Source: Candidatus Hydrogenedentota bacterium (GTDB lineage: Bacteria > Hydrogenedentota > Hydrogenedentia > Hydrogenedentales > JAGMZX01). From it: DNA of 64,000 nt. The stretch lies in the NCBI GenBank assembly GCA_029556545.1, contig JAKQEQ010000019.1, forward strand, positions 65,694 to 129,693. Reading direction: 5' to 3'. Every line of letters begins with the position of its first letter. The first letter of the stretch is position 1. The notes below the pieces were generated by a model, which saw only the letters and a program-made list of their open reading frames with translations, had not been told where the DNA came from and ran no database searches. The position numbers and the translations under genes were made by a program. Positions 3,539-60,684 of this stretch are shown piece after piece.

Positions 3539-3764
3539 CGGATGCTTCCTCCTGGTTGTGCCGATTCCGAAACGTCCCCCGACCAACGCGAGACGCTTGA
3601 TTCTACCGAGACTTGCGTCGAGGCTTCAATAATTCGGTCCGAGGTTGAACCGGCCGCGCTGGACGACGAGAAGTCGTGTGAATCCTGAAAGACGCCGGGA
3701 CAGTCCAATCCGCCGAGTGTTGCCGGAGTCGAGTTCTGAAAACAACAGACGGAGGTTCAATTAC

Positions 3765-4331
3765 ATGATTACACGCACATTGACTGGCATCGCACTGGTT
3801 GCGGCGGCGGGGTTCTTGGGGAGTTGGTTCGTGGTGTGTGGCGGCACGGCGGATGCCGCGGATAAGGACGATGTGGGCCCGAAGCTGCATGCGCTGGTCG
3901 ACCAATTGACCCCGGAGCAGCAGGCGGCGCTCTTACTGTTGCTCTCGGACCTGACCGCCAAGTCCGGTCAAGCGGAAGCTGCGGCGCAAGACCCGCTGGG
4001 GATTGCGAAGGAAGGCATGGCGGCTTTTGTCGAGGCGGCGAAGAAGGGCGACATCGACGCCATGATGGCCAATATATCGAGCGATTTTGAGCATTATCAG
4101 TTGGGCGACAAGGAGGGCCTTCGCGGCTTTCTCCAGAATGCGGCCGCGATGGGATACCTGGATGAGCTTAAGATCAGTCTGGAAGATACGGAAGCCGAGA
4201 AGGACGGCGATCTGGTCATCCTCTATCCCGTCGAGGTTGAAGGCGCTTTCGGGACCGCCGTCTTCGAGTTCGAGGCGAAGCAAGAAGGCGGGAAGTGGGT
4301 GATATCGGGCCTGGACGCCAGCGGTATCTAA
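3765..4331 (+). CDS. Exported NTF2/SnoaL-like hypothetical protein
   Basis: A 188-residue protein. An N-terminal signal peptide (MITRTLTGIALVAAAGFLG) ends around residue 30 near ADAADK. After an acidic helical linker, residues ~85-188 read like an NTF2/SnoaL cone fold: a helix AAFVEAAKKGDIDAMMANIS, then a helix-strand pattern ending in EFEAKQEGGKWVISGL. Similar exported folds bind small ligands or act as lipocalin-like chaperones, but nothing here fixes a role. The ATG at 3765 is supported by GGAGG at 3751-3755. It converges on the symporter gene downstream; GGAGGCGTG and CACGCCTCC (4360-4368/4400-4408) form an inverted repeat between them. Confidence 0.7.
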   Translation: MITRTLTGIALVAAAGFLGSWFVVCGGTADAADKDDVGPKLHALVDQLTPEQQAALLLLLSDLTAKSGQAEAAAQDPLGIAKEGMAAFVEAAKKGDIDAMMANISSDFEHYQLGDKEGLRGFLQNAAAMGYLDELKISLEDTEAEKDGDLVILYPVEVEGAFGTAVFEFEAKQEGGKWVISGLDASGI

Positions 4332-4398: not shown

Positions 4399-6024
4399 TC
4401 ACGCCTCCGGTTCGCCAAGGCCGATATCGCGGTAGGTCCAGCGTGGTTGCTCGCGGCCGCGGTCGAGGATCAGACTCAAGCCGTAGCCGATCACAAGGGT
4501 CGCGATGAGTCCGACGGCGCTGGTCCAGAGGAACCCGATATCGAGCGCCGCAAAGAATCGGCTCAGGGCGGAGGACTGCCCGCCGTTCCAGGCGAGGCTC
4601 CACGCGGCGAGGTTTCTCGCAAGCACGACTAAGGCCGTGATCACGCCGCCAATCACGCCGCCCCAGAAGACGCCGCGCGCGCCCGCGCGCCGCGTGAACA
4701 GCCCGAGCAGGAACAGCGCGAACAGTTCGCCGAGGAAACAGTTGACGACCTTGAGGGCGAGTTCGAAGACAGTGCCCAGCGATCCGACGACGCTGCCGCA
4801 CGCGATCACGAGCGCGCCGAGTCCGACGCAACTGTACCGCGCGAGCCGCACACGCGCGCGGACGGCCTCCGCGTCGTTCGCCGCGCTTTCCATGTTGTGT
4901 TCGCCGCGCCAGGCGCGATAGTAGAAGTCGTTCGTGATCGCGCCGATGCAGGCGTTGACCCCGGAATCCATGCTCGACATGGCCGCCGCCATGATCGCGC
5001 TCAGCATCAGGCCCGCCGCGCCCACGGGCATGTAATTCGCGATGAAGTGGGGGAATACGGCGTCCGCCTTGAGCCCCTCCGGCAGGGGCGTGTGCGCGCG
5101 GAACGCAAACAACGCCAAACCGACGCAAATCATCAACGTGAAGTAAGAGGCGAAGGTGACGCAATTCAGCAGGAAGCCGCGCCGGGCCGTCTCGATCGAA
5201 CGGGCGCTCAGGTATCGCTGAATCATCGTCTGGTCCACGCAGTAATTGCCGAACTTGTCCAGGGTGAAGCTGACGATGATGGCGAGCACCGTAAAGTCCG
5301 TGTACAGATACAGTTTGAACTTCTCGCCGAATGTGGCGCCGTCCCAACCCGGCACGGACGCCGCGATCGCGGTCTTGCCGGCGCTGGCGGCCGTTTCGAT
5401 CACGCCCGCCACGCCGCCGGGGACGTGGGCCGTCACGGTGTACAAGGCCACGCCGACGCCGCTGAACATGACGATGAACTGGGCGATATCGGTCCAGATG
5501 ACCGCGCGCAGACCGCCGAACGTGGTATAGACTGTGGCCGCGGCCCCCAGCACAATGACCGCCGCCGCGATGGGCACGGCGCCGTCGCTGGCCACGTGCA
5601 ACACCATCGCCGGCACGTAGAGCGTGACTGCCATCCACGTTACGCGCCAGAGAATGAACAGCGCGCTTGCGAGCAGGCGTACGCGCAGGCTGAACCGGTG
5701 TTCGAGGTATTCGTAAGCCGTGTAGACGCGCAGGTTGCGAAACAGCGGCATGAAGAGGCGCGTCACCAGCGGGTACGACACCGGCAGCGCCACCAGGCTC
5801 CACAGCATGATCGTTCCCGCGCCGAGGGCGGCAGTCGGAGCGCCGATGAACCCGATGCTGCTCGCCATCGTGGCCATCAGCGACACGCCGACCACGACCC
5901 AGCCCAGGCCGCGCCCCGCCAGGAAGTATTCGCGTGAGGATTTCTGACTGCGGAAGAAGAACGCGCCGATGGCCAGCACCGCGACCAGATACCCCCCGCA
6001 CAGACTATAATCGAGCGCCGTCAT
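4399..6024 (-). CDS. Sodium:solute symporter (SSS/SLC5) family transporter
   Basis: A 541-residue inner-membrane transporter with about 13-14 hydrophobic helices. Helix 1 is LCGGYLVAVLAIGAFFF, followed by SSREYFLAGRGLGW and a long AASSIGFIGAP segment characteristic of SSS family helices 1-2. Other typical pieces are TVYTTFGGLRAVIWTDIAQF and NACIGAITNDFYYRAW. The family couples sodium influx to uptake of sugars, inositol, sialic acid or amino acids. It starts 4 bases after the lysS stop on the same strand, so it is probably co-transcribed with lysS although the functions are not obviously linked. The substrate is not predictable from motifs. Confidence 0.92.
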   Translation of the reverse strand: MTALDYSLCGGYLVAVLAIGAFFFRSQKSSREYFLAGRGLGWVVVGVSLMATMASSIGFIGAPTAALGAGTIMLWSLVALPVSYPLVTRLFMPLFRNLRVYTAYEYLEHRFSLRVRLLASALFILWRVTWMAVTLYVPAMVLHVASDGAVPIAAAVIVLGAAATVYTTFGGLRAVIWTDIAQFIVMFSGVGVALYTVTAHVPGGVAGVIETAASAGKTAIAASVPGWDGATFGEKFKLYLYTDFTVLAIIVSFTLDKFGNYCVDQTMIQRYLSARSIETARRGFLLNCVTFASYFTLMICVGLALFAFRAHTPLPEGLKADAVFPHFIANYMPVGAAGLMLSAIMAAAMSSMDSGVNACIGAITNDFYYRAWRGEHNMESAANDAEAVRARVRLARYSCVGLGALVIACGSVVGSLGTVFELALKVVNCFLGELFALFLLGLFTRRAGARGVFWGGVIGGVITALVVLARNLAAWSLAWNGGQSSALSRFFAALDIGFLWTSAVGLIATLVIGYGLSLILDRGREQPRWTYRDIGLGEPEA

Positions 6025-49238: not shown

Positions 49239-50945
49239 ATGGACAAGAAAGCGGTTGCTGCCGTTCTCGAAGAAATAGCCGTCTTGCTCGAACTGACGGG
49301 CGAGAACCCGTTCAAAGTGCGTTCCTACGAAAACGGCGCGCGTGTCATCGCCCAACTGGACGAGGACCTCGAAACGCTGGTCCGCGAGGGTCGGCTCCGG
49401 GCGCTCAAGGGCGTGGGGGAGGCCCTCGAAAAGAAGATCGCCGAACTGGTCACGACCGGACGCCTCGAATTTCACGAAAAACTCAAGGCGCGGTTCCCCG
49501 AGTCCATCTTCGAGTTGTTCGGCATCCAGGGCCTCGGCCCGAAGCGCATCAAGGCGGTTTACGACGAGCTGGGCGTCGACTCCCTCGATAAGCTCGAAGC
49601 CGCCTGCCGCGACGGACGGCTCGCCGCCTTTAAAGGGTTCAGTGACACGCTGCAGCAAAAGATTCTGGACGGGATCGCCTTCGCGCGGCGGCATCAGGGC
49701 TCACACCTCGTGCGGAAAGCCCTCGAAGCCGCGCTCACGGTGCGCGCCCATCTCGCCACGGACAAGTCCGTCCAGCGGATCGAGGTCGCCGGCAGTCTGC
49801 GGAGATGCAAGGAGGTGATCAAGGACATCGACCTGCTCGTCTCCAGCAAGCAACCCGACCACGTGATGCGGCGGTTCGTCGAAGGCCCCGGGGTCGCGCA
49901 AGTCGTCGCGCACGGCGACACGAAGTCGAGTGTCATGCTCGACAGCGGCCTCGCGGCAGACCTCCGGGTCGTCGAGGATGCGCAGTTCCCCTATGCGCTC
50001 GCCTATTTCACCGGAAGCAAGGAGCACAACGTGGTCATGCGGCAGCGCGCCAAGGACCGCGGCCTCAAACTCAACGAATACGGCTTGTTCCGGGAGGATG
50101 GCAGCTTGGTCGCCTGCCGCGACGAGAAGGCTATCTTCGCGGCGCTCGACCTGCCTTACATTCCCCCGGAGTTGCGCGAAGACCGCGGCGAATTCGACCT
50201 CGAACGGACGCCCGAGCTCATCGAGGAAAAGGACCTGCGCGGCATTATTCACGTTCACACGCCGTACAGCGACGGACGCGATACACTTCCGCAAATGGTC
50301 GAGGCGACACGGCGGCTCGGCTACAAGTACCTCGTGGTCTGCGATCACAGCCAGTCCGCGGCCTACGCCAACGGGATGAAACCGGAGACGGTCCTGCGGC
50401 AGCACGAGGAAATCGACGCGCTCAACAAGATACTGCGCGGCTTTCGCGTACTCAAGGGCATCGAATCGGACATACGGGCCAACGGCGCCCTCGATTACGA
50501 CGACGACATCCTGCGGCGCTTCGATTTCATCATCGCCAGCGTCCACAGCAAGCTCGAAATGAGCGAAGACGAGGCCACCGCGCGCATTGTCAAGGCCGTC
50601 GAACACCCGCGCACCGACGCCATCGGCCACCCGACGGGGCGCCTGCTGCTCTCGCGGACCGGATACTCCCTGAATTACGAAAAGGTTTTCGACGCCTGCG
50701 CCGCGAACCGGGTTGCCCTCGAAATAAACTGTAACGAGCACCGGCTCGACGTCGACTGGCGGCATCTGCGCTGCGGCAAGGACAAGGGCGTGAAGTTCGT
50801 TATCGGCCCCGACGCCCACGATGCTGCGGGTCTCGACTGCATCCGGCTCGGCGTCGGCATCGCGCGCAAGGGCTGGCTCGAACCCGGCGACGTCTTGAAC
50901 ACGCTGGACGCGAAGGAATTGCTGGCATGGCGAAAACCGCGTTGA
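49239..50945 (+). CDS. polX: Family X DNA polymerase with PHP exonuclease domain
   Basis: A 568-residue PolX enzyme. HhH regions (about 45-135: LKGVGEALEKKIAEL, IQGLGPKRIKAVYDEL) bind DNA. The polymerase active site has GSLRRCKEVIKDIDLLV (about 185-201; two catalytic Asp) and ADLRVVED for the third. A C-terminal PHP domain (about 335-568) carries HVHTPYSDGRD, VCDHSQS, KGIESDI, SVHSKL and PDAHDAAG, giving 3'-5' exonuclease / AP endonuclease activity. It acts in base excision and gap-filling repair. GGGAG precedes the ATG. The stop overlaps nth by 19 bp, so two repair genes are coupled. Confidence 0.94.
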   Translation: MDKKAVAAVLEEIAVLLELTGENPFKVRSYENGARVIAQLDEDLETLVREGRLRALKGVGEALEKKIAELVTTGRLEFHEKLKARFPESIFELFGIQGLGPKRIKAVYDELGVDSLDKLEAACRDGRLAAFKGFSDTLQQKILDGIAFARRHQGSHLVRKALEAALTVRAHLATDKSVQRIEVAGSLRRCKEVIKDIDLLVSSKQPDHVMRRFVEGPGVAQVVAHGDTKSSVMLDSGLAADLRVVEDAQFPYALAYFTGSKEHNVVMRQRAKDRGLKLNEYGLFREDGSLVACRDEKAIFAALDLPYIPPELREDRGEFDLERTPELIEEKDLRGIIHVHTPYSDGRDTLPQMVEATRRLGYKYLVVCDHSQSAAYANGMKPETVLRQHEEIDALNKILRGFRVLKGIESDIRANGALDYDDDILRRFDFIIASVHSKLEMSEDEATARIVKAVEHPRTDAIGHPTGRLLLSRTGYSLNYEKVFDACAANRVALEINCNEHRLDVDWRHLRCGKDKGVKFVIGPDAHDAAGLDCIRLGVGIARKGWLEPGDVLNTLDAKELLAWRKPR

Positions 50946-51604
50946 CCCTCGAAGCCCAACGCGGCCGCGCGCGACAAGTCTTCGAGCGCCTGCGCGCGGC
51001 CTACCCTGATCTGCGCTGTACCCTTGACTTCAACGGTCCCCTCGAACTACTCATCGCCACCATACTTGCCGCGCAATGCACTGACGCGCGCGTGAACATC
51101 GTTACGAAGAATCTGTTTCGCAAATATCGCAAGCCTGCGGACTACGTGAACGCGCCCATCGAGGAATTGCAGGAGGACATCCGGCCGTGCGGCTTCTACC
51201 GTAGCAAGGCCCGCAGCATCGTCAACACGTGTGCGAAACTCATTGATCGCTTCGACGGCGTCGTGCCCGGCACGATCGAGGAACTCCTCAGCCTCGACGG
51301 CGTCGGGCGCAAGACCGCCAACGTGATCCTCGGCGAATGTTTCGGCATGCAGGGGATCATCGTGGATACCCATTGCACGCGCATCAACCGCCGCCTCGGT
51401 TTCACGAAGCACGCGGACCCCGTCAAGATCGAGCGCGACCTCATGAAGGTCTGGCCCGAGGATCATTGGACCCTGTTCTCGCACGCGATGGTGTTTCATG
51501 GCCGCGCCGTGTGCACCGCCCGCGCGCCGCGATGCTCCCAATGTCCCGTGGCGGACCTCTGCCCGTTCCCGAGTTCCAAGGAAGGAAAACGCATTGCGAA
51601 ATGA
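50927..51604 (+). CDS. nth: Endonuclease III (DNA glycosylase/AP lyase)
   Basis: A 225-residue HhH-GPD glycosylase. The HhH region LLSLDGVGRKTANVILGE contains the catalytic Lys; VDTHCTRINRRLG carries the catalytic Asp. The C-terminal CTARAPRCSQCPVADLC binds a [4Fe-4S] cluster with the expected C-x6-C-x2-C-x5-C spacing. It removes oxidised pyrimidines in base excision repair. The start overlaps polX by 19 bp, with AAGGA upstream. It is followed by an overlapping CPBP-type membrane protein gene. Confidence 0.95.
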   Translation: MAKTALTLEAQRGRARQVFERLRAAYPDLRCTLDFNGPLELLIATILAAQCTDARVNIVTKNLFRKYRKPADYVNAPIEELQEDIRPCGFYRSKARSIVNTCAKLIDRFDGVVPGTIEELLSLDGVGRKTANVILGECFGMQGIIVDTHCTRINRRLGFTKHADPVKIERDLMKVWPEDHWTLFSHAMVFHGRAVCTARAPRCSQCPVADLCPFPSSKEGKRIAK

Positions 51605-52304
51605 TCCCGGAGATCACCGGCGGCGGGAGGAACGTCCTCAGCGACCGGCAACGCACCTACCACTCGCAACCGTGGTTGTGGCCTACGTCATCGTAGTCCT
51701 TGGCGTAGATACCCTCGCGGCCCTCGGCCTCGACTGGCCCCTTCGCTGGTCCTGGTTTCAATGGCAAGGACGCAACGGCTTCGACCTGTTCAAGTTCATC
51801 TTCTGGTTTGTTGTCCCGTTCCTCTGTTGCGTGCCGCGTATGGACTGGGACTGGTTCGGCATAAAACGATGGAAGCGTATAGATGCGATATTGCTCGCGC
51901 TGCTCGTGGCGTGCTGCGTCGGCGCGGTCCTGCTGGTCCCGTACCTCCCCGGCGTCCGCGACTACTACCGCCAATTCGGCGGCGCGCTATCCGCCGCACA
52001 GAAGTGGAACTTCTTCATTTTCCACCTGGTATGGACCTTCTCCTGGCTAATCGGCTGGGAGTTCCTGCACCGCTACGCGCTGCTGCGTCGCGCCGACGCC
52101 GCGTGGCCCCGCTTCGGCTGGCTCCTGGTGCCCCTCTCCGAAACGCTCTACCACCTGCAAAAGCCGCCCATCGAGGCCGCCGGCATGGCGCTGTTCGCCC
52201 TCGTCGCCACTGCCTGGACCCGCAACCGCCGCAATATGCTCGCCCCCTTCATCGCGCATCTCGCCATCGAAATCGCGCTCGGCCTCTTCCTCCTACTCGG
52301 CTGA
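51594..52304 (+). CDS. CPBP-type intramembrane protease-like protein
   Basis: A 236-residue protein with about six helices (TVVVAYVIVVLGVDTL, LFKFIFWFVVPFLCC, AILLALLVACCVGAVLLV and a C-terminal pair). WEFLHRYALL resembles motif 1 (ExxxR) of CPBP/Abi proteases, SETLYHLQKPPIEAAG gives the motif 2 His, and FIAHLAIEIALG the motif 3 His. The family includes CAAX-like proteases and bacteriocin-immunity proteins. The TTG at 51594 is favoured: AAGGAAGG lies 7 bases upstream and it overlaps the nth stop. The last 12 bases overlap an antisense Rieske-tail duplicate. Confidence 0.72.
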   Translation: MRNDPGDHRRREERPQRPATHLPLATVVVAYVIVVLGVDTLAALGLDWPLRWSWFQWQGRNGFDLFKFIFWFVVPFLCCVPRMDWDWFGIKRWKRIDAILLALLVACCVGAVLLVPYLPGVRDYYRQFGGALSAAQKWNFFIFHLVWTFSWLIGWEFLHRYALLRRADAAWPRFGWLLVPLSETLYHLQKPPIEAAGMALFALVATAWTRNRRNMLAPFIAHLAIEIALGLFLLLG

Positions 52305-52385
52305 CGCTTCCGTATCAATCGGCTGCGGCGACATGTAGATGTCGTCCCCCTCGACCGAGGAAGACAACGCGCTGGCGTCCGACAT
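52293..52385 (-). pseudogene. Duplicated 3' end of the Rieske gene (remnant)
   Basis: On the minus strand this 30-codon frame encodes VEGDDIYMSPQPIDTEASAE-stop, nearly the C-terminus of the Rieske protein at 52976-53311. Over about 55 bases (52301-52355 against 52983-53037) only about five differ, and the stop codon falls at the same place. The first ten codons are unrelated. It is a remnant of a duplicated Rieske 3' end, or of a second Rieske gene lost when the 52.4-52.95 kb segment arrived. Confidence 0.65.
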
Positions 52386-52398
52386 TGTATTCGCCCTA

Positions 52399-52407
52399 TG
52401 TTATACT
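52399..52407 (+). promoter_or_regulatory. Extended -10 promoter for the coupled small-gene pair
   Basis: TGTTATACT, an extended -10 element, 68 bases before the first small gene. A convincing -35 is absent. Confidence 0.4.
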
Positions 52408-52474
52408 TGGTTCGCTGAAGCGCAGCGGCTGCTTTCCGGCCCTCGACAGCGCAAGAATAAAGGGATAGTCATGC

Positions 52475-52708
52475 ATGGATTTCAAGATAGTCGGGAGGAT
52501 TGAATCTGTCGAAACGTTCGCTGTGGGGAAAGGGATACGAGAGATTCGGCGGCTCCAAAGAGCCTACGGCAACGGAAGGTGGCGGAAGCGAAAAGGTATC
52601 GCGTGGGTGAAGTTGGCGGACAATTCAGCTCGGCTGGCCGAGTTACATTGGTACGAAGCATCTGGAATTGGCAAGAAGGAATTCAAAATAAAGCGGTACC
52701 TGGAGTAA
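52475..52708 (+). CDS. Small basic protein of a widespread unknown family (first of a pair)
   Basis: A 77-residue protein. It has a basic, mixed alpha/beta pattern: VETFAVGKGIREIRRLQRAYG, then GRWRKRKGIAWVKLADNSARLAELHWYEA and GIGKKEFKIKRYLE. I know similar proteins as short conserved hypotheticals in cyanobacteria, chloroflexi and deltaproteobacteria-type genomes, but no function is established. AAGGGA supports the ATG. Its stop shares bases with the next start (TAATG). The basic surface suggests RNA or DNA binding. The pair is flanked by a duplicated Rieske 3' end. Confidence 0.72.
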   Translation: MDFKIVGRIESVETFAVGKGIREIRRLQRAYGNGRWRKRKGIAWVKLADNSARLAELHWYEASGIGKKEFKIKRYLE

Positions 52709-52947
52709 TGGCGATGACGCATTCAAGCGAGCACCGATTCGTGATCTGCATTCGTAACGAGGATTACCCGGCTTCGCTCGAGAAGCGAAAGATATATGTG
52801 GCGTTGCCTGACGCGGACGCGGAGAAGCACCATCAAGTGAGGGTGATAGACGAGTCCGGGGAGGATTACCTCTACCCGAACGAATGTTTTCTCCCGGTGG
52901 ACTTGCCGGAAGCCACGGAGCGAGCGTTGGTGGGCGTCGAGACATAG
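52708..52947 (+). CDS. Small acidic protein of unknown family (second of a pair)
   Basis: A 79-residue protein with RFVICIRNEDYPASLEKRKIYVALPDADAEKHHQVRVIDESGEDYLYPNECFLPVDLP, a compact beta-rich fold. Short relatives with ICI(R/K)N, SLE..K.Y and DESGEDYLYP motifs occur as conserved hypotheticals. The ATG at 52708 overlaps the preceding stop (TAATG) with GGAG just upstream, showing translational coupling. An acidic partner after a basic one recalls toxin-antitoxin pairs, but neither protein matches a known toxin or antitoxin. Confidence 0.72.
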   Translation: MAMTHSSEHRFVICIRNEDYPASLEKRKIYVALPDADAEKHHQVRVIDESGEDYLYPNECFLPVDLPEATERALVGVET

Positions 52948-52975
52948 CCGCGCGTCATTTGCGGCGCGCCTACAC

Positions 52976-53311
52976 TTAATCCGCTGACGCTTCCGTATCG
53001 ATCGGACGCAGCGACACGTAGATGTCGTCCCCCTCGACTTTCACGGCATATCGCCGCAGCGGCGCGTCGCCGCCGCGAAGACAATCCCCGGTGCGCAGAT
53101 CGTATTGCCAGCCGTGGCGCGGGCACGTCACCACATCCCCCTGACGGCTGCCCGTGCTCAGGTCCGCCCCCTGGTGCCGGCAGCCAATCTCCATCGCCCG
53201 AAAAGACCCGTCGGCCTCGCGAAACACCGCCACTGGCCGCGTCAACACGCGATAGACCCGCATCGGTTTACCCTCGAAGTCCTTCCGCGACGCTAACTTC
53301 ACATAGTCCAT
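52976..53311 (-). CDS. Rieske-type [2Fe-2S] ferredoxin
   Basis: A 111-residue protein with the Rieske cluster motif: EIGCRHQGADLSTG (Cys44, His46) and VTCPRHGWQYDL (Cys63, His66), spaced as in Rieske ferredoxins of dioxygenase systems. GxCLxG follows. Probably a soluble electron carrier in the cytoplasm. The ATG at 53311 starts the conserved fold and has GGGAG 6 bases upstream; the longer frame is not used. Its C-terminal ~20 codons are duplicated at 52293-52355. It is divergent from the DUF1858/IscA/YgfZ genes. Confidence 0.9.
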   Translation of the reverse strand: MDYVKLASRKDFEGKPMRVYRVLTRPVAVFREADGSFRAMEIGCRHQGADLSTGSRQGDVVTCPRHGWQYDLRTGDCLRGGDAPLRRYAVKVEGDDIYVSLRPIDTEASAD

Positions 53312-53471
53312 GCACGGCTCCCGCAAGGCGCGCCCGCCGCGGTACGGTCCAGGAATGGTTTCGGACCCGCGAATGTTAAGCATACAGAACGCATTGTGCG
53401 CGTACTTCCTTGATTTCGCGGGGATTATACTTCATGCTAGCCCCCACGAGAACAAGGAGCTTTGGATACCC

Positions 53472-53714
53472 ATGTTGGAAGCAGAAAACCGCTATTTTCG
53501 TCCCGATATGACCGTCGGCAACGCGATGGAACTTCACCCCCGCGTAGCCGAGGTCTTTGCCGCGTTCCATCTCGGCGGCTGCTCGCACTGCGGCATCCGT
53601 CAGTACGAGACCATCGAGCAGGTCTGCATGGCCTATGGCGTCGACCTCGAAACGCTGCTCGAAGTGCTCGAAAGCCTGATGGAACAACCGGAGGACGAGG
53701 CGGCCAAGGAATAG
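53472..53714 (+). CDS. DUF1858 domain protein
   Basis: An 80-residue DUF1858 protein (ScdA N-terminal-like): [59 protein letters not shown]. The conserved CSHCG pair and hydrophobic pattern fit the family, which is linked to repair of Fe-S or di-iron proteins and to hybrid-cluster proteins. It is the first gene of a plus-strand run with an A-type Fe-S carrier (7 bp gap) and a YgfZ-like protein, which supports a role in Fe-S metabolism. Confidence 0.85.
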
Positions 53715-53721
53715 GCGCCCC

Positions 53722-54075
53722 ATGTCCCACACCGAGACGTCCCCGACGAAGGCCCTAATCACCGCGACCCCCGAAGCCGTCGCGGAACTGAAAAGGCTTG
53801 CCGAAACTGAAGGCAGAGGAAAAGACGGCGTGCGCCTCGGCGTGAAAGGGGGCGGGTGTTCCGGCTTTTCTTACGTGCTCGACTTCGACGCCCGCCGCGA
53901 CGGCGACAACGTCGTCGAGCAGGACGGCGTCGCATTCCTCATCGACCGAAAATCGGCCATCTACCTCAAGGGAATCGAGCTCGACTTCCGCAGCGGGTTG
54001 CGCGGCAAGGGCTTCGTGTTCCAGAACCCGAACGCCTCAAGCACCTGCGGCTGCGGAGAGTCCTTCGCCGTCTGA
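53722..54075 (+). CDS. A-type iron-sulfur cluster carrier (IscA/SufA/ErpA family)
   Basis: A 117-residue HesB-like protein with the three cluster Cys: GGGCSGFSY (Cys46) and CGCGESF (Cys109, Cys111). A-type carriers pass [2Fe-2S] or [4Fe-4S] clusters from scaffolds to target proteins. Length and motif spacing are typical. It starts 7 bases after the DUF1858 stop and ends 4 bases before the YgfZ-type gene, so the three genes form an operon for Fe-S protein maturation. Confidence 0.95.
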
Positions 54076-54079
54076 TTCC

Positions 54080-55864
54080 ATGGGTATCCTCCAGGAAATC
54101 GAAGCCGTTCGCCGCGGCGTTGGGCTGTGGCGGCGCGTAGACCACACGGTGCTTCGTGTCACGGGCAACGACGCCGGTCCGTGGCTCCAGTCCCAGACGA
54201 CCAACGACGTGCTCGCGCTCCGCGACGGCGAAGGGTTGCGCAACGCGCTGCTGGACCGGCAGGGCCGCGTTCTGGCCCATTTCACCACCCATCGCTTCGA
54301 AGATGAGTTCTGGCTGATCATCGAGAAGGCATGTGTCACCGCCGTCCTCGATCGCGTCGCAACCCACGTGTTTCTCGAAGATGTTCACGTCGAGGACGTC
54401 GGCGGCGACGCGCCCCAGTTGCTCGTGGAGGGGCCGCGCAGCTTGCTTTTCCTCAACACGCTGTCCGCCCCCTCCGTCAGACCGCCCGAAGAAGCGACGG
54501 CCCTGCTCCCGACCGCGCCGTTCGCCTTCGCGCCCGCGATCCTGCTGGGATACGAGGCGCTGGTCTTCCGCATGAGCGAGTCCGGCGAAGATGGCTTTCT
54601 GATTGTGACCGCGACGGAGCAAGCCGAAACGCTGTTCAGCGCCATCGAGGCGCGGGGCCCCGAGTTCACCGCCGAAGTCGTGGGCGAGGCCGCGCGCGAC
54701 GTGCTGCGCATTGAGGCGGCCACCCCGCGTTACGGCCTCGATCTAGATGTCCATTCCGTAATCGCCGAAACACCCCTCGCGCAGGACGCCGTGAGCTACA
54801 CGAAAGGTTGCTATCTCGGCCAAGAGGTCGTAGCCCGCCTCAAAGCCTACGGCGCGCCCAAGTTTGCCCTCATGGGACTCATCGTCGAGGACCGGAACGT
54901 GTCGTTGCCGGGACCCGGCGCGACGCTGGTAGTTGGGGGCAAACGCGTTGGCGTGCTGCGCAGCGCGGCCTTCTCGCCCGCGCGCGACCGCTGGATCGCC
55001 TTGGCTTCCCTTGATCGCGACCATCGCGCGCCCGGCGCGTCGCTGGATCTGGCGGCGCGGGAGCGGGGGCGTCCCGCCCCCGAAACAACAGCCCTGCGCG
55101 CGCGCGTCGTCGCGCTTCCCTTCCACACCCCCCCGTCGCGCGTCGAATACGCCCAGAGCCTGTACGAACAGGCGCTCGAACGCTTTCAGCAGGACCCCGA
55201 AGACCGGGACCAGACGGCCATCCATCTATTGCAGAACGCCGTGTCGTTGCACCCGACCTACGAGGACGCGTACGAGGCGCTGGGCGTCATCCTGCACCGC
55301 CAGTGCCGCACCGAAGAAGCCATCCGGCACATGCGCACGCTCGCGAAGCTGAATCCGAATGCCGTCATGGCCCACACGAACCTCTCCGTCTTCTACGTGG
55401 CCAAGGGCATGATCCGCGAAGCCGAGGAGGAGAAGGCCCTCGCGCGGCAACTCGAAATGAAATCGCAACTCGATGCCCGTGCCGCGCGACAAACCGCGGA
55501 CCGGGAGCGCGCGCGTATTCGCCGGGAAGCCGAGGATCGCGTCGCTATGTTTCTCGAGGTGCTCGACATCGACCCCGAGGACCCCGTCGCCACCCTCGGC
55601 CTTGGCGGCGCATACATGCAATTGGAGCAATACGCCGAAGCCGCGCCGTTCCTCGAAACAGCCGTCCGCGTCAAGAAAGACTATAGCGCGGCCTACCTCA
55701 AGCTGGGCGAATGCCGCGAACGTCTCGGCGACCTGGCTGCCGCCGCGCGTGTCTATCGCCGCGGCATCGAGGCGGCAAGCCGGAAGGGAGACCTCATGCC
55801 CCTGCGGGAGATGGAGCGCCGCCTCGCGGCAATCGAGGCAACGTCGGAAACAGCCGGTCTTTAG
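54080..55864 (+). CDS. YgfZ/GcvT-like folate-binding protein fused to TPR repeats
   Basis: A 594-residue protein. Residues ~1-340 are the YgfZ/IbaG57 type: VLRVTGNDAGPWLQSQTTNDV, LLDRQGRVLAHFTTHRF, LRIEAATPRYGLDLD and the signature KGCYLGQEVVARLKAYG (about 242-258). YgfZ/Iba57 works with A-type carriers in [4Fe-4S] assembly, matching the IscA gene 4 bases upstream. Residues ~355-590 are TPR motifs (YEDAYEALGVILHRQCRTEEAIRHM, PVATLGLGGAYMQLEQYAEAAPFL). The fusion may let it bind partners. A 17-bp family-B hairpin core (55065-55081) is in frame at about residue 329. Confidence 0.88.
   Translation: MGILQEIEAVRRGVGLWRRVDHTVLRVTGNDAGPWLQSQTTNDVLALRDGEGLRNALLDRQGRVLAHFTTHRFEDEFWLIIEKACVTAVLDRVATHVFLEDVHVEDVGGDAPQLLVEGPRSLLFLNTLSAPSVRPPEEATALLPTAPFAFAPAILLGYEALVFRMSESGEDGFLIVTATEQAETLFSAIEARGPEFTAEVVGEAARDVLRIEAATPRYGLDLDVHSVIAETPLAQDAVSYTKGCYLGQEVVARLKAYGAPKFALMGLIVEDRNVSLPGPGATLVVGGKRVGVLRSAAFSPARDRWIALASLDRDHRAPGASLDLAARERGRPAPETTALRARVVALPFHTPPSRVEYAQSLYEQALERFQQDPEDRDQTAIHLLQNAVSLHPTYEDAYEALGVILHRQCRTEEAIRHMRTLAKLNPNAVMAHTNLSVFYVAKGMIREAEEEKALARQLEMKSQLDARAARQTADRERARIRREAEDRVAMFLEVLDIDPEDPVATLGLGGAYMQLEQYAEAAPFLETAVRVKKDYSAAYLKLGECRERLGDLAAAARVYRRGIEAASRKGDLMPLREMERRLAAIEATSETAGL
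55065..55081. repeat. Family B hairpin core inside the ygfZ-TPR gene
   Basis: GGGGGC-GTCCC-GCCCCC is a perfect stem whose core GGGCGTCCCGCCC is identical to the first hairpin of the family-B copy at 35394-35448. Read in frame it gives RGRPAPE, a linker just before the TPR part. Confidence 0.6.
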
Positions 55865-60412: not shown

Positions 60413-60684
60413 GGCCTATAGACTTCCCGCCTGTGGCGTACGCGGTACACCACGGCGCGATGGTTGTCCGCTAACTCGAAAAGCACGCGATATACCCCTA
60501 CGCGCAGCCGGTATTCGGGCGTGAAGTTCGTTAAGCGCTTCACGTCACCGGTCAGGTTGTGTTCTAGTCGTTCTAATGCTGTGACGACTCGACGTTGGTC
60601 GCCCTTCGAAAGCACCCTCAAGTCCTTGAGGGCTTGTGGTTTCAACTCGACGACATACCGCACGACGCCAGTGTACCATCTCAT
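60409..60684 (-). CDS. RelE/ParE-family toxin
   Basis: A 91-residue RelE-fold protein: YVVELKPQALKDLRVLSKGDQRRVVTALERLEHNL, then VKRLTNFTPEYRLRVGVYRVLFEL and AVVYRVRHRREVYRP. The RLRVGVYRVLFE strand pair and the final RHRREVY with basic/aromatic residues match RelE toxins, which cut mRNA in the ribosomal A site. The partner is the Phd/YefM-like gene overlapping by 4 bases. The ATG at 60684 is used; no strong SD is visible. 22-bp repeats flank the pair. Confidence 0.85.
   Translation of the reverse strand: MRWYTGVVRYVVELKPQALKDLRVLSKGDQRRVVTALERLEHNLTGDVKRLTNFTPEYRLRVGVYRVLFELADNHRAVVYRVRHRREVYRP

Follow-up and report, generated by a model that had tools for sequence, protein, structure and literature searches.

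How a pair of small genes came to lie between two copies of the 3′ end of another gene is the question raised by a locus in the draft genome (G000, contig C9) of a Candidatus Hydrogenedentota bacterium. The locus lies in a stretch of 64,000 nucleotides, referred to here as the window, and its two genes, A and B, are bounded on both sides by the end of a gene for a Rieske protein. A sequence-only reading of this DNA had offered two answers: an insertion that duplicated the end of its target, or an older tandem Rieske gene that was split by the arrival of the pair. The direct repeat itself is beyond doubt, as 55 of its 62 nt are identical at a spacing of 683, and the local alignment of the copies scores 48, whereas the best of 500 shuffles reaches 16. 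Since the copies differ at 11% of their positions, an assembly duplicate can be ruled out. The match of about 55 bp first described is thus real and contains exactly five differences, although its right copy had been placed one position off (52301-52355 pairs with 52984-53038). It had also been claimed that the stop codon occupies the same position in both copies, that the left one forms a 30-codon remnant frame, and that nothing but an extended −10 promoter and two genes coupled by TAATG is enclosed between them; the stop codons (TAG on the left, TAA on the right), the minus-strand frame, the promoter-like site and both genes were all found as described (Table 1). With the only congener (G001) as the outgroup, the differences that change an amino acid (V>M, L>P, R>Q) fall for the most part in the left copy, while those of the right copy are mainly at third positions, and the left copy reads as a decaying vestige and the right one as the working gene.

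Table 1. Features of the window locus and gene-end repeats around A–B pairs
Feature	Coordinates	Strand	Length	Basis or remark
CPBP (Rce1-like) gene, left neighbour	51603..52304	+		PF02517, E=0.00019, 22.1 bits (just below the 22.4-bit Pfam cut-off), orthologues in six relatives; 51603 is the start of the searched stretch, not a start codon
Left copy of the probable target duplication, apparently vestigial Rieske 3′ end	52294..52355	−		Within 30-codon frame 52293-52385, stop TAG
Probable inserted unit (promoter, gene A and gene B)	52356..52976	+	621 bp	Six genomes of the order lack it at the syntenic locus
Extended −10 sigma-70-like promoter, putative	52379..52407	+		CCGACA-17-TATACT with TG, consensus match only
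Gene A, unnamed conserved family, putative toxin	52475..52708	+	77 aa	Predicted beta-alpha-beta-beta-beta fold, pLDDT 94
Gene B, putative antitoxin	52708..52947	+	79 aa	Overlaps A by TAATG; predicted SH3-like barrel, pLDDT 86
Rieske [2Fe-2S] protein gene, right neighbour	52976..53383	−		Pfam PF00355, E=1.4e-17
Right copy of the probable target duplication, 3′ end of the apparently functional Rieske gene	52977..53038	−		Repeat comparison
Gene-end repeat, window			62 bp	
Gene-end repeat, L083 (Bradyrhizobium erythrophlei)	3683-3938 and 4475-4730		256 bp	Gene SRAP-type by eye
Gene-end repeat, L091			138 bp	Ends of two convergent genes
Gene-end repeat, L062			74 bp	
Gene-end repeat, L074/L081			45 and 26 bp	Same gene in two Nitrospirae

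The first piece of evidence on the origin of this arrangement came from the relatives of the host. The Rieske gene was matched in 36 of the 40 genomes searched, and several genomes of the bacterial order keep polX, nth and CPBP on one strand facing the Rieske gene on the other, with DUF1858, HesB and YgfZ behind the latter wherever the fetched stretch extends far enough; in the window, this conserved neighbourhood spans 49239-55864. In six genomes (G014, G012, G016, G015, G037 and G008, with a different spacing or polX in G016 and G015), CPBP and the Rieske gene meet tail to tail, with a single Rieske end and no pair between them. This is the outcome that the sequence-only reading had proposed to look for by comparing synteny. 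The tails of the two genes even overlap in at least one genome (G015). The empty junction is read here at the level of the order, the closest at which it is readable: the assembly of the sole congener is broken inside CPBP and again 782 bp behind the Rieske gene, so it is indecisive. Those 782 bp (L132:6802-7583) contain no CPBP and end, at the contig end, in a ribbon-helix-helix/HicB-like frame, and the junction may have taken up another insert in that genome; a reading frame behind its Rieske gene that appeared PIN-like by eye gave no match in Pfam.

Because six genomes of the order possess one Rieske end and no pair, we take the window pair to have been inserted, as a unit of about 621 bp, with a long duplication of its target on the two sides, and assign this reading a probability of roughly 0.8. 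It coincides with the first of the two answers mentioned above, and the same arrangement recurs around relatives of the pair elsewhere. The stop codon of CPBP (52302-52304) sits within the left copy, as had been recognized when the remnant was said to overlap the end of that gene. The accompanying suggestion that this stop might have been changed did not hold: the CPBP C-terminus ends at the same residue, plus or minus one or two, in the window and in six relatives (for instance, HLAIEIALGLFLLLG in the window and HLIIEVELLLFLTFFG in G014, each followed by the stop), and the stop is therefore ancestral.

The second answer, in which the left copy is what remains of an older tandem Rieske gene whose 5′ part was later replaced by the pair, would account for a vestige that is in frame and has its stop at the same position. 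However, the similarity to the Rieske gene breaks off abruptly at 52355, and the 119 bp that follow are no more similar to the rest of that gene than shuffled sequence (score 11, shuffle mean 10.5, P=0.44). Moreover, the syntenic loci of the six genomes hold one Rieske gene abutting CPBP, and gene-end repeats also flank the pair at unrelated genes, which leaves a tandem ancestor very improbable.

The flanks of the pair were compared across the family by aligning the 500-bp stretches that precede A and follow B at 89 pair loci. A flanking direct repeat above threshold was found at 16 of them, compared with 18 of 690 control windows (2.6%; Fisher p=9e-8), the controls being drawn randomly from these loci, and those within one locus not being independent; an ungapped version of the test was also run. 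The notion that such repeats are a general rule of toxin loci was rejected, as such a repeat was seen at only 1 of the 30 ParE-type toxin loci examined in the order. Flanking repeats are, thus, a feature of the A–B family. At six loci, representing five independent sites, the repeat derives from an ordinary neighbour gene, of which it is the 3′ end, stop codon included (Table 1), and the unit inserted there measures 503-621 bp and consists of the pair and its promoter region. Other repeats are of different kinds: integron attC arrays of six are present at L070 and L048, an attC signature was recognized by eye at L067, L043 and L109, and at L118, L121 and L136 the repeats may be of a dispersed, intergenic kind. 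As a general cause of the flanking repeats, attC was discarded, because it fits some loci and not the window.

A single-copy counterpart of a duplicated gene end was found at two of these sites. At L091, the pair lies within a 138-bp duplication, whereas in the relatives G317 and G318 a single copy joins both flanks, whose alignments overlap on it by 135 and 137 bp, respectively. The repeat copies of L091 are 96% alike and only about 70-80% like those relatives, and the duplication thus arose within the lineage or from a close strain. At L062, three relatives have a single gene end and lack the pair at that position. L083 was set aside as an empty-site test and is a weaker case, since its SRAP-like gene is multi-copy in the genus and the comparison is not clean.

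The insert of L091 also ends, behind B, in an attC-like sequence (4467-4545) that recurs in the genomes of relatives, although the site is not an integron, and this cassette-like copy appears, from its sequence, to have moved out of one. For an integron cassette to escape in this way, leaving a long target duplication, would to our knowledge be unusual. This end, together with the pair relatives found in attC arrays (L048 and L070, and by eye L067, L043 and L109), could favour the view that the window pair entered a secondary site in the form of an integron gene cassette. However, the distance from B to the right repeat is only 29 bp, which is too short for an attC, the window locus contains no attC remnant, and its repeats are host gene sequence. 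We know of no cassette insertion that duplicates 62-256 bp of its target, and consider this route very unlikely for the window, even if some A–B relatives resemble gene cassettes in their placement between attC sites.

What was inserted belongs to a large family. A scan of GTDB genomes yielded at least 548 confirmed relatives of A, which, among the matches listed, are spread over Proteobacteria, Cyanobacteria, Chloroflexota, Nitrospirota, Acidobacteriota and other groups, and in 79 of the best 80 loci (of the at least 548), A is immediately followed by B, the exception being at a contig end. Despite this breadth, the family is unnamed. No convincing family was found in Pfam for 40 members each of A and B, nor a convincing match in NCBIfam or PADLOC for the members tested; the two window genes had none in Pfam, PHROGs or PADLOC, and neither A nor B had one among PDB sequences. 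A literature search on the A motif returned nothing relevant. The pair was found in none of the phage records and in 1 of 72,556 plasmid records, where both genes are labelled hypothetical. The predicted fold of A weakly resembles cystatin-like proteins (best Z 4.6), and RelE/ParE-type folds were not among its matches, which is no evidence of their absence; that of B resembles SH3 domains (best Z 7.2), again as weak matches to solved structures. No function can be assigned to either protein from these fold matches.

The distribution of the family is patchy (5 of the 68 genomes in the order, counted by A, and 29 of the 242 in the genus of G068), and in the tree the window pair groups with copies from Thioalkalivibrio and Chromatiales (support 92/85), while the two copies from its own order that were included group with those of Cyanobacteria and Acidobacteriota. 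Both observations indicate that the pair spreads horizontally, and the window copy was itself gained in this way, its nearest kin being gammaproteobacterial among the matches listed.

This provenance bears on a further explanation, in which the resident gene recombined, in a Campbell-type integration, with a circle that bore A–B together with a homologous Rieske end, so that the repeat would represent donor homology rather than duplicated target. Such an event also yields direct repeats of variable length, and a circle model has been proposed for transposed Arabidopsis genes, around which flanking repeats are likewise in excess (PMC2869330). Nevertheless, with the closest A–B copies being gammaproteobacterial (among the matches listed), a donor circle provided with the Rieske end of this order needs an extra step, and the 96% likeness of the L091 copies, against about 70-80% to relatives, speaks for a duplication within the lineage or from a close strain. 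Integration of this type is therefore unlikely, while retaining a small share of the probability.

As for the nature of the pair, a clue was derived from its decay. In the order and in the genus of G068, a truncated or frameshifted A accompanied an intact B in about 14 instances (some of those in Bradyrhizobium may go back to a single event), and the reverse was found 0 times. The loss of A while B stays is what would be expected if A were the toxin and B the antitoxin, and A–B is probably a toxin–antitoxin-like addiction pair of that polarity, as far as sequence can tell. It resembles type II toxin–antitoxin modules in that its genes are small and overlapping, share a promoter, spread horizontally and decay starting with the first one, and also in its occurrence as cassettes in chromosomal integrons, where toxin–antitoxin cassettes are found (PMC11023631). 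On the other hand, A and B have no convincing match to a known toxin or antitoxin family in Pfam, NCBIfam or PADLOC, and their fold matches are weak. It is quite possible, if less likely, that they constitute another kind of coupled pair, such as a small regulatory or repair one, that spreads horizontally; this would agree with the absence of a convincing sequence or fold match to known toxins or antitoxins and is compatible with the insertion as described, but small overlapping genes under one promoter, a sporadic distribution, placement in integron arrays and the loss of A but not of B all argue against it. In the host genome, an intact B without A (G000:C66, L150:8112 onwards) and a B fragment (G000:C34, L032) are relics of earlier pairs. 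Elsewhere in the window, at 60418-60651 on the minus strand (G000:C9:126111-126344), there is a match to a ParE-type toxin (PF05016, 38 bits).

The closest precedent for the arrangement is the insertion with long target duplication described for restriction-modification genes in Helicobacter by Nobusato, Uchiyama, Ohashi and Kobayashi in 2000. As summarized in PMC3031569 and PMC1643837, it concerns a unit that is not a transposon, is bounded by a long direct duplication of its target, variable in length, and is recognized by comparison with an empty site. The window case works in the same way and displays the features tested: the insert lies between long direct target repeats, as do other pairs at gene-end sites (26-256 nt); a single-copy empty site exists (at the order level for the window, and in G317 and G318 for L091); and the insert contains A and B and no IS or recombinase. 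The known cargo of such insertions consists of restriction-modification genes, which are addiction modules, and A–B is toxin–antitoxin-like by its decay pattern only; a review of toxin–antitoxin systems, which cites the 2000 study in connection with restriction-modification systems, states that the latter have addiction and apparent mobility in common with toxin–antitoxin systems (PMC2654758). The differences are that A–B is an unnamed unit of about 0.5 kb with no recognizable nuclease or methylase, that many phyla are concerned here and Helicobacter there, and that what is duplicated is a neighbour gene's 3′ end. What is new is, therefore, the cargo, an unnamed and widespread toxin–antitoxin-like pair, and its breadth across phyla. 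Insertion sequences and composite transposons also duplicate their target, though usually by a few bp and not by the 62 bp seen in the window, whose insert contains no transposase-like ORF and is not bounded by a pair of inverted repeats.

Returning to insertion with target duplication as the preferred reading, the following course of events can be proposed. A horizontally acquired A–B module would have entered the tail-to-tail junction of CPBP and Rieske, where about 62 bp of the target were doubled, leaving one copy on each side. The absence of a recognizable recombinase, the differing targets and a duplication length that varies from 26 to 256 bp suggest that the insertion took place by illegitimate joining during repair or replication and not by a recombinase of its own. 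In a compact genome, joinings that delete part of the target would harm the neighbours, and those that duplicate it would survive, as neither of the convergent genes loses its 3′ end. The repeats could recombine and excise the pair cleanly, but A–B addiction would punish loss of the pair and thereby retain it, and the left Rieske end would now be decaying as a vestige. A bolder version, to which we attach very little weight, is that A–B directs its own insertion as a recombinase-less mobile unit of about 0.5 kb, with its products, or the DNA damage that results from them, opening a widely staggered break; were this so, long and variable target duplications at gene 3′ ends would follow from such a break.

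The movement of genes without a transposase has been an open question since long target duplications were found around restriction-modification genes. Being present in many phyla, about 0.5 kb in size and accompanied by readable scars and empty sites, A–B makes the mechanism amenable to study across many independent insertions, and it points to a large and unannotated toxin–antitoxin-like family.

Two further observations concern the fate of the pair in particular lineages. Most Bradyrhizobium pairs occupy one common inherited locus at which no repeats are detectable, and the pair is thus not highly active in that genus. In the congener of the host, an in-frame deletion appears to have fused the start of A to B (L026:1-950), and just upstream of this fusion there are repeated stretches that resemble fragments of a REP-associated transposase (RAYT).
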